DNA from: Tupaia tana
Taxonomy: Eukaryota; Chordata; Mammalia; Scandentia; Tupaiidae
Length of the DNA stretch: 64,000 bases
Direction of reading: 5' to 3'
NCBI GenBank assembly: GCA_026018925.1
Contig: JAKSZU010000004.1
Span: forward strand, 12,333,383-12,397,382
Of the stretch, positions 8,799 through 57,709 are shown piece by piece. Each line of letters opens with the position of its first letter. The first letter of the stretch is position 1. Both the position numbers and the translations under genes were made by a program. The notes under the pieces are model-generated. The model did no database searches. It had not been told where the DNA came from and saw nothing but the letters and a program-made list of their open reading frames with translations.

Positions 8799-8958
8799 GT
8801 CCAGCAGGTGGCGTGGTGGTTAAGTTGCTGGACACTCCCACATGGCTGACCATGGTTTGAGTTCTGGACTTGATGGCTTGCTTCCTCACTTTCCCACTCT
8901 CTCAGTGTTTCTCTCTGGTCAAATGAAAATAATGAAAAAATAAAATCAAATAATTTTT
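8799..8958 (+). mobile_element. SINE-B
   Basis: GGTCCAGCAGGTGGCGTGG, TGGCTTGCTTCCTCAC and TCTGGTCAAATGAAAATAA. Its A-tail faces that of the next copy. Confidence 0.92.
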
Positions 8959-32522: not shown

Positions 32523-32725
32523 GGTCTGCCCACGGTCGGTCTGCCCACGGTCGGTCTCCCCACAGTCGGTCTGCCCTCGGTCGGTCTGCCCACGGTCGAT
32601 CTGCCCTCGGTCGGTCTGCCCTCGGTCGGTCTGCCCTCGGTCGGTCTGCCCTCGGTCGGTCTGCCCACGGTCGGTCTGCCCACGGTCGGTCTGCCCACGG
32701 TTGGTCTGCCCACTGGTTTCCGCTG
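32523..32725. repeat. 15-bp minisatellite, about 13 units
   Basis: Units are CGGTCGGTCTGCCCA or the variant CGGTCGGTCTGCCCT. Because 15 is divisible by 3, frames on both strands stay open and give pentapeptide repeats (VGLPT/VGLPS on +). This open frame is a product of periodicity, not evidence for a gene. Confidence 0.93.
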
Positions 32726-43972: not shown

Positions 43973-43989
43973 CTAATGTAGTATGTTTT
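43973..43989. repeat. Target-site duplication, left copy, of the composite element
   Basis: CTAATGTAGTATGTTTT is identical to 46273-46289. The T-rich end abuts the poly-T (the element's poly-A read on +), as expected for L1-type target-primed reverse transcription. Confidence 0.93.
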
Positions 43990-44221
43990 TTTTTTTTTTT
44001 TTTTTTTTTACTTTTTTTAATTACATTGAATTACATATAACTTTACAGTGTATTACATTGCTTTTTCAAAAGGGAATGCCATGCATGTCAGTCAGTACAG
44101 AGACATTAATCTCCCCGCTTCAACATTCAATATCTTTCCTATGTTTCCCCCAATCATTATTATTATTATTCTAATTATTTTTTATGATAAACGTGATTTT
44201 TTTTCCCAATTATCAGATCAT
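43990..44221 (-). mobile_element. L1-type 3' end of the composite element
   Basis: This segment is nearly the same as 39603-39790 (shared words such as GACTGACATGCATGGCATTC and AAGCAATGTAATACACTG), followed by a poly-A tail. It defines the 3' end of the L1 family that mobilised both elements. Confidence 0.8.
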
Positions 44222-44361
44222 AAAGTTCCCAACAATAGGGAACGTAGACTCCACTTAGGGCTGGACCAAGGGTGGGTCTCGTGCAGCCCCGCAAATGTAG
44301 GTGAATCTACATGGAACACAGTTTTAGGAATGCGGCTCAGGAAAGCAGAGAGGGCCATCAG

Positions 44362-45081
44362 CTGATGCGGCACGCGGGGCAGACCCCGGCCACGACCCGC
44401 GGGGCAGAGCCCCAGCCACGGCACATGGGGGAGACTCCGGCCACGGCACGCGGGGCAGAGCCCCGGTCAGGCCGGACCTCCGGATAGGGCACACGGAGCA
44501 GAGCCCCGGCCACGGCACGCGGGGGCAGACCCCCAGCCAACGCACGCGGGGCAGACCCCCAGCCAACGCACGCGGGGCAGACCCCGGCCACGGCACGCGG
44601 GGCAGACCCTGGCCACGGCACGCGGGGCAGACCCCGGCCACGGCACGCGGGATAGAGTTCCGGCCACGGCACGCGGGGGCAGAGCCCCAGCCACGGCACG
44701 CGGGGCAGAGCCCCGGTCCGGCCGGACCTCTGGGTAGGGCATGTGGAGCAGAGCCCCGGCCACGACACGCAGGGTAGACCCCGGCCACGGCACGCGGGGC
44801 ATACCCCGGCCACGGCACGCGGGGCAGACCCCGGCCACGGCACGCGGGACAGAGCCCCGTCCACGGCACGCGGGGCTGACCCCGGCCACGGCACACGGGA
44901 CAGAGCCCCGGCCACGGCACGCAGGGCAGAGCCCCAGTCGGGCCTGACCTCCAGACAGGGCACGTGGAGTGGAGCCCCCGCACCCTGACCCCGCGCCCCA
45001 GCACGTGGAGTGGAGCCCCCGCACCCGCCTCCCCACCCCTGCTCACCGGCACGCGGAGCGGAGCCCCCGCCTGCCGCCCCT
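44362..45081 (-). repeat. GC-rich 25-bp VNTR inside the composite element
   Basis: The unit contains CGGCACGCGGGGCAGA plus CCCCGGCCA, and exact spacing of 25 bp is seen at 44591 and 44616. Interspersed variants with GGACCTCCGG recur near 44470, 44720 and 44940, giving a higher-order pattern. Because 25 is not a multiple of 3, all three frames cycle through the same peptide set. The - strand frame stays open from the ORF1 fragment to a stop at 44358. Confidence 0.88.
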
Positions 45082-45575
45082 GGACGTTTAATTGTATCTA
45101 GTACTTCTTGCATATTATTCTCAAAGTTTTGGGCCATTTTCTCAGTCTTTATGGTGGACCTTTCTAGGCCAGCCATTTTCTCTTCTACATTAGAGATTCC
45201 ATTTTCTGGATGATCTAGTCTGCTTTTAATACTTTCAAGGGAGATTTTGACTTCTTGTATTATAGCCTTCATCTCTAACAGCTCCATCTGATTCTTTTGT
45301 AAAGTGTGAAACTCCTCTTTTAGATCTTGCATGAATTTCCTCACCTCCTAGAACTCTTCAACTCCTTTTTCCTTCGCCTTCAGCAGTTCCTTGTCTCTCT
45401 TCTCTTCGCTCTCTGTTATCTTTGCCATTATGAATGATCTGAATTGTTTATCAGACATTTCCATGAATTCCCTTGAACCGTGTGTGGATGAAGAGGAGCT
45501 ATCCGTTTCAATTGGAGGAGAGGCATTTTCCTGCTTCTCCATATTTCTTGTGGTCCTGCAGCGATTTCTAGTCAT
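45082..45575 (-). pseudogene. L1 ORF1p N-terminal/coiled-coil fragment
   Basis: The - strand frame begins MTRNRCRTTRNMEKQ and continues with DKQFRSFIMAKITESEEK, then KNQMELLEMKAIIQEVK, ISLESIKSRLDHPENGIS and MQEVLDTIKRP. This matches the N-terminal and coiled-coil part of mammalian L1 ORF1p, with the usual break just before the RRM-like domain (normally DTIKRPN followed by RIIGVPE). One in-frame TAG lies at 45348-45350. The frame then continues open into the VNTR. The RRM and C-terminal domains are absent, so it should not bind RNA as normal ORF1p does. Confidence 0.85.
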
Positions 45576-46046
45576 CTGGTGGATGGTCGGTTTCTTCCCA
45601 AACTTTTGAAGTTTAATATGAGGGTTGGGAAGTGTGCAGAAAAGGAAGCAGAGAGAGGGAAACAATACCAACAACAACAACAAAAAAAAACAGACAAGAA
45701 ACAGAGAAAAAGAAGAGAAAAGCTTAGGAATAAATCTAAAAAAGAAAAATTAATATTCAAAAAATTTCAATAAAAATCAAAAATTAGAAAACCGCGCGGC
45801 GCGCGAAATGTCTAGATTTCAGGAGCCATGGAGCAGACTGTCTCTTGAAGAAGGGCTGTTCTGGGAGGAGCAGAGGGGATTATTAACAAAACAAAGGCCC
45901 AGGAGGAAGGGGCCAAAGGGCCCTGTAAGACGCCTCACCTTAAAAAATTCTAAAAAGCAAAAATTAAAAAAAGACAGAGAGAGAGAGAGAGAGAGAGAGA
46001 GTGAGTGAGAGGTAGAGAGAGACAAAGATTGATTCAGAGACAGGAG

Positions 46047-46272
46047 ATATGAAAGGGGTTTTCCTACCACGTGGGTTTTGTATGCTGGAGGCCCAGTTAG
46101 GAGTGGGACATCTTCCTTTCTCCCAGCATGTCTAGATTTCAGGAGCCATGGAGCAGACTGTCTCTTGAAGAAGGGCTGTTCACGTGGGTTTTGTATGCTG
46201 GAGGCCCAGTTAGGAGTGGGACATCTTCCTTTCTCCCAGCATGTCTAGATTTCAGGAGCCATGGAGCAGACT
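46047..46272 (-). repeat. 113-bp tandem units at the 5' end of the composite element
   Basis: The marker GAGCAGACT recurs at 46151 and 46264 (period 113) and again at 45831, giving two close copies plus a displaced partial third. The arrangement resembles the promoter monomers at the 5' ends of some mammalian L1 families (known for mouse L1). Promoter function here is inference. Confidence 0.8.
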
Positions 46273-46289
46273 CTAATGTAGTATGTTTT
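46273..46289. repeat. Target-site duplication, right copy, of the composite element
   Basis: This is an identical 17-bp copy of 43973-43989 directly abutting the element's 5' end. Confidence 0.93.
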
Positions 46290-56322: not shown

Positions 56323-57695
<1,373 letters not shown>

Positions 57696-57709
57696 TGAGA
57701 TGTCTTTTA

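Follow-up and report, generated by a model that had tools for sequence, protein, structure and literature searches.

Sequence evidence for a young composite retrotransposon family in Tupaia tana, with a HAL1-derived front, a GC-rich VNTR and an L1-derived tail

Structure of the insertion and its genomic copies

The window, by which we mean the whole 64,000-nucleotide stretch analysed here, carries a single minus-strand insertion at 43990-46272 that is flanked by a perfect 17-bp target duplication. In transcript order it consists of 113-bp monomer sequence (one partial unit, then one complete unit), a 5' UTR and the first half of ORF1, followed by 715 bp of GC-rich ~25-bp repeats (the VNTR), a 181-bp unique segment, and ~175 bp of L1 3' UTR leading into poly(A). 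The features are as follows (a slash within a motif marks a splice boundary).

46273..46289, no strand: target-site duplication on the element's 5' side, a 17-mer identical to 43973-43989
46181..46272, minus: first partial 5' monomer, with the element start at AGTCTGCTCC
46068..46180, minus: complete 113-bp 5' monomer, exon-like, terminating in the splice donor CACGTG/GTAGG
45603..46067, minus: intron-like 5' UTR stretch that the window copy keeps, with its GT at 46067-46066 and its final AG at 45604-45603
45861/45860, minus: inner acceptor CCCAG/AACAGCC within the intron-like stretch, with a second partial monomer after the acceptor
45081..45575, minus: N-terminal half of an L1/HAL1 ORF1, last codons DTIKRP, breakpoint placed by alignment
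45348..45350, minus: premature stop TAG at ORF1 codon 76 (CAG in HAL1 copies)
44366..45080, minus: GC-rich VNTR, 78% GC, ~25-bp units, from tandem repeat analysis
44185..44365, minus: 181-bp unique segment, joined to the VNTR at CCGCATCAGCTGATGGCC and present in 20/20 fetched copies
44010..44184, minus: 3' tail, derived from 3' UTR sequence of the lineage to which the L1 locus L032 belongs (93.2% over 177 bp, L032:6908-7081)
43990..44009, minus: poly(A) tail, seen as a T run on the plus strand
43973..43989, no strand: target-site duplication on the element's 3' side, a 17-mer identical to 46273-46289

The first-pass annotation had described a 2.3-kb minus-strand unit framed by a perfect 17-bp duplication, with about 720 bp of 25-bp GC-rich repeats between L1-type ends, and the identical 17-mers and the 715-bp repeat block bear this out. 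Tandem Repeats Finder reports a 113-bp period in 1.8 copies at 100% match for the 5' end (46068-46272), and 22.8 units with a score of 569 for the VNTR at 44368-44935, to which degenerate outer units are added. The ORF1 break after DTIKRP separates the coiled-coil from the RNA-binding (RRM) portion. A Pfam scan of the ORF1 fragment (45081-45575) and of ORF1 frames gave no match at E ≤ 0.001, and the fragment is identified as ORF1 by its alignment to ORF1 frames that are open elsewhere in this genome. The modules leave no space for ORF2, and in alignment none of them matches the ORF2 part of the two L1s considered below (L031 and L032) except in short simple-repeat matches. Elsewhere in the window, a GC-rich 15-bp minisatellite (32523-32713; 12.7 units, 93% match) has a unit unlike that of the composite's VNTR, and a frame at 57255-57698 looks like a putative exon of a Pumilio-type protein; the corresponding host gene may contain the window.

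Searching the host genome (2.95 Gb) with a probe from 44222-44361 yielded 1,209 candidates, of which 40 were scored, all of them full length and at 96-100%. The probe, proposed in the first-pass annotation, is not L1-like; it belongs to the 181-bp segment (44185-44365), the L1 3' UTR being confined to about 44010-44184. The copy sample comprises the best 20 of the 39 other places, with 10 kb around each, and is skewed to young, window-like copies. Genome-wide, the ORF1/VNTR junction occurs at 599 places and the VNTR/3' junction at 1,042 (both at ≤2 mismatches; reversed-pattern control 0), and this surplus of 3' over 5' junctions is the pattern that 5' truncation yields. All 20 fetched copies have the same VNTR/3'-module joint, and the eight that reach ORF1 have the same ORF1/VNTR junction (8/8). 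Flanks match (score ≥12) in 16 of the 20 copies, compared with 9 of 380 swapped pairs. These 16, which carry the L1-type duplications and 3' poly(A) of L1-mobilised elements, include L015, in which the duplication is A/T-rich simple sequence; the other four (L009, L011, L016, and L025) have no clear duplication. The check proposed in the first-pass annotation, that many copies share both junctions and have duplications of their own, is thus passed. The window copy, L025, L026, and L028 also start at one common base (AGTCTGCTCC), as is expected of a fixed transcription start.

Non-CpG divergence from the majority sequence is low. It is 0.2-1.9% in the ORF1 module (mean 0.97%, 13 copies), for a set of 15 copies from exact junction matches minus L046 and L049, which were left out because their ORF1 module is unalignable, probably through 5' truncation (mean 6.1% with both). 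In the 3' module the mean is 0.68% in 21 copies, namely the window copy and the 20 best matches, a set biased to young copies. We read the composite as a real, young family with L1-type insertion.

In nine copies the VNTR spans about 442 to 2,208 bp, at 77.6-81.3% GC; in 11 junction pairs, put together manually from the first 100 matches listed for each search, it spans 539 to 3,419 bp. Two roles for it were considered and rejected. A hairpin role was dropped, as the RNA fold of one 301-base stretch is no more stable than that of shuffled sequence (z 0.25). A VNTR-encoded fusion protein was suggested by a window-copy frame that crosses the junction between ORF1 and the VNTR, but the codon-76 stop is present in 22/22 readable copies, and stops interrupt all three VNTR frames in five of nine copies (L013, L016, L025, L026, and L028).

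The HAL1-like front, its intron-like stretch and its monomers

A pattern that carries the composite ORF1 beyond the break and on into RRM sequence occurs at 1,050 places (≤1 mismatch, control 0), represented here by four loci (L036 to L039), and a further locus, L040, was picked for its 343-aa frame. L036 to L040 form a half-L1 (HAL1) family with the same 5' UTR as the composite and monomers homologous to those of the composite at 89-96%; their 3' region is shared with L029-type half-L1s, and the 343-aa ORF1 frame is open in L037 and L040. L040 extends only ~2.4 kb from monomer to A-tail (with flanking duplications judged by eye), so there is no ORF2 there. Over the full ORF1 module the composite is 92.8-94.2% identical to L037 through L040 (93-94% for L037, L038, and L040), and the composite and HAL1 majorities are 3.7% apart. 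ORF1 identity to L029 and L030 is 84.2% and 84.6%, respectively. From these alignments, the 5' end and the ORF1 half of the composite are assigned to a HAL1 family of the same genome.

L029 (1054-3989) and L030 (1197-3964) represent a second half-L1 lineage and are 97.6% identical over 2.3 kb. Both have 125-bp monomers and an ORF1 frame open for 340 aa, and an ORF2 was seen in neither. They had been fetched as the first PF02994 matches and as candidate active L1s, and were rejected as such on proving to be ORF1-only half-L1s. Many frames among the best 150 PF02994 matches are ~340 aa long, like those of L029 and L030.

HAL1 elements have several origins in mammals and are described as coding for ORF1p only (PMC5753468). 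The composite resembles HAL1 in its 113-bp monomers, in the position of its intron and in the first half of ORF1; both are non-autonomous, and both derive from an L1 5' end and ORF1. HAL1, however, has ORF1p and its own 3' end, whereas the composite, likewise without ORF2, has half an ORF1, which breaks off after DTIKRP and carries the codon-76 stop, together with a VNTR, the 181-bp segment and the tail of another L1. The codon-76 stop is TAG in 21 of the readable copies and TAA in one, compared with CAG in 4/4 HAL1 loci (L036 to L039), and none of the 22 retains a complete ORF1 protein; the composite RNA would thus rely on proteins made elsewhere.

In the 5' UTR, L024, L025, L028, and the window copy have a stretch running from GTAGG to AAAAG that is exactly absent from L013, L014, L021, and L026, half of the eight fetched copies extending into ORF1 (L016, a truncated copy with no monomer that starts inside the intron, was scored as unspliced). 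The joined, intron-less form of the composite is found at 47 genomic places (≤2 mismatches, control 0), of which 27 are exact and 12 have two mismatches (some of these 12 may not be composites); it is a minority form compared with the 599 ORF1/VNTR junctions. HAL1 copies that retain the intron have the acceptor CCCTCAG/ATTGAAC (L037 and L038) or CAG/TTTGAAC (L039), and the intron-less HAL1 loci L036 and L040 are joined at this HAL1 acceptor, a form present at 762 places (≤3 mismatches, control 0). The AG of the HAL1 acceptor is lost in the composite (CATATTAAAC in 5/5 intron-retaining copies). Intron-less composites are joined at the next AG downstream of it, and a composite joined at the old HAL1 acceptor position has no genomic match (≤3 mismatches). 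A joint that shifts to the next AG once the first is destroyed is as RNA splicing predicts.

The four intron-less copies do not form one clade (AU p = 0.0036). The tree behind this test is weakly resolved, with 1/6 inner branches starred; the starred branches need at least two changes and the best tree three. The intron-like stretch is precisely missing from some of the insertions in at least two lineages, and we infer that the composite RNA itself was spliced. Intron-less 5' ends might also have been produced by DNA deletions between repeats, or be inherited within a subfamily of single origin. The region is repetitive, its tandem arrays make recombination possible, and the tree is weakly resolved, but we consider either course very improbable, since the boundaries are GT-AG, loss of the first AG goes with a shift of the joint to the following one (47 versus 0 places), HAL1 uses the same donor with an intact acceptor, and the spliced copies fall outside one clade at the p value given above.

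Splicing, the reading preferred here, places the intron-less copies beside SpIREs, in which an L1-type RNA was copied into the genome after splicing inside its 5' UTR; the composite likewise has a precise GT-AG loss in the 5' UTR of separate insertions. Human intra-5' UTR SpIREs are described as having reduced promoter activity and as being retrotransposition-defective (PMC5860796). The composite differs in that its donor lies downstream of the monomers, which remain in the copy, and spliced copies may therefore stay mobile.

The joint between monomers, CACGTG/AACAGCC, unites the same donor with the inner acceptor. The last monomer of L037 is also joined donor to inner acceptor, with no intron between monomers, L029 and L030 have the same joint arrangement with their 125-bp monomers, and L025 has a mixture of fused and intron-bearing units. 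Arrays of ~326-bp exon-plus-intron units precede composites at C228 and C242. These arrays, at C228:521778-543320 and at C242:7727226-7729851 and 7739586-7740548 (the two ends of the C242 array, which are the parts covered), run into composite ORF1, VNTR, and 3' end, and the C228 copy has its VNTR/3' part duplicated. A satellite-like array of 113-bp monomers lies at C18:20652-23389, with 23 exact joints among the matches listed; a 117-bp satellite has been described in the sloth (PMC7644632). Genome-wide, the fused joint is found at 8,879 places, in part within such arrays, with 6,405 of them on the reverse strand, and this strand skew suggests very large monomer arrays elsewhere in the genome.

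We tentatively raise the possibility that the 113-bp monomers of HAL1 and the composite were fused by RNA splicing, that the DNA unit is the ~326-bp exon and intron, and that both unit forms seed satellite-like arrays. The fused joints fit monomers made by splicing without proving the direction, as an intron may instead have entered a 113-bp array, or the ~326-bp arrays may have been amplified later at the DNA level. Mouse L1 also has tandem 5' monomers; for L1spa, donors have been predicted in the monomers and acceptors in M1 and the tether, and 22 genomic copies might be accounted for by splicing (PMC9022269, which cites Belancio 2006). The composite and HAL1 differ from it in that the monomer joints are themselves donor/acceptor sites, and in having ~326-bp arrays beside 113-bp arrays. 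If monomer fusion by splicing is true, splicing together with retrotransposition would be a productive route to remodel a promoter and keep it as a compact tandem.

The L1 tail and the joining of two lineages

L032, the one member of the tail-donor lineage that was covered in full, is an L1 in which ORF1 (333 aa) and ORF2 (1,343 aa) are both open. The composite ORF1 is only 67% identical to that of L032, and nothing in L032 matches the 181-bp segment. Compared with the HAL1 3' ends of L029, L030, and L040, the composite tail has only ~20-bp matches at chance level. The tail alignment thus places the last ~175 bp of the composite with an L1 lineage in which both ORFs are open, and with its ORF1 closest to HAL1 and its tail to L032, the element is a chimera of two lineages. 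The earlier description of both ends as L1-type holds for the last ~175 bp, and is amended for the 5' half, which comes from HAL1 and not directly from a full L1. L031 and L032 represent two L1 lineages that share 82.6% identity across 4.26 kb. In each the ORF2 frame is open (1,290 and 1,343 aa, respectively); their 3' UTRs differ, and L031 is without a long ORF1 frame.

L1 derivation of the 5' half as well as of the final ~175 bp would also be accounted for by a single L1 or HAL1 progenitor in which a deletion removed ORF2 and half of ORF1, with the VNTR as an expanded repeat of that L1 and the composite as a deletion subfamily. Such an origin is very improbable, given that the two ends align to different lineages (ORF1 to HAL1, tail to L032), that the tail has no match to the HAL1 3' ends beyond the chance level, and that the VNTR is in none of nine L1/HAL1 loci (L029 to L032 and L036 to L040) as far as these were fetched, with an ORF2 frame only in L031 and L032 and with L036 to L039 covered only ~1.5 kb past the break. 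An L1 carrying the same VNTR, which the first-pass annotation had named as evidence that would tell against a separate family, is accordingly absent from these nine.

Relation to known composites and proposed origin

SVA, LAVA, PVA, and FVA elements are, like the composite, non-autonomous elements built of unrelated parts, with a variable GC-rich central VNTR, poly(A), and L1-type duplications. The composite differs in its HAL1 monomers in place of an Alu-like region, its ~25-bp units and its L1 3' UTR tail; where SVA/LAVA-type elements have CCCTCT hexamers and an Alu-like region at their 5' end (PMC5753468), the composite has HAL1 monomer and UTR. The likeness to hominoid SVA and LAVA is thus one of logic and not of parts, as had been proposed at the outset. 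Descent from SVA/LAVA-type elements, for which this common logic is the argument, can be set aside almost entirely, as there is no Alu-core match in the 64-kb window (one 23-mer), a result that also tells against a hominoid host, both composite ends come from HAL1 and L1 of the element's own genome, and the VNTR unit is ~25 bp versus 30-50 bp in SVA (PMC4432496).

The hominoid VNTR composites have been described as hominoid-specific and, to the knowledge of the same authors, as alone among non-LTR elements in having complex internal tandem repeats (PMC4432496). A 2018 paper describes a gene exon spliced to SVAs in chimpanzee (PMC6139936). No such element as the present composite was found in the accessible portion of a 2026 survey of LINE-1 chimeras (PMC13174262), and no HAL1-VNTR composite was found in literature titles and the opening lines of abstracts, a search separate from Repbase and Dfam, where the family may be catalogued already under a host-specific name. 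The composite seems to represent a second, independent origin of the VNTR-composite build from unrelated parts.

The composite is very probably a young, non-autonomous composite retrotransposon family that is mobilised by L1 and is convergent with SVA and LAVA, not a member of their group. It would have arisen when a HAL1 5' half, comprising a monomer promoter, the 5' UTR intron and the first half of ORF1, was fused to a GC-rich minisatellite, with the 181-bp segment and the last ~175 bp and poly(A) of a two-ORF L1 lineage on its 3' side. Transcription would begin inside the first 113-bp monomer, the composite RNA would sometimes be spliced within the 5' UTR, and the L1 machinery would recruit it via the L1-like 3' end and poly(A), with target-primed reverse transcription inserting the composite and generating a 14-19-bp duplication. 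Promoter activity, L1 trans-mobilisation, and any role of the VNTR are inferences.

The composite can be viewed as an L1 parasite that appears to have taken over the tail of another L1, and its natural loss of an acceptor site would document the splicing of a mobile RNA. With the same build assembled from unrelated parts, VNTR function becomes testable by comparison, and if two unrelated lineages have gained a GC-rich VNTR, it may aid transcription, export, or trans-mobilisation.
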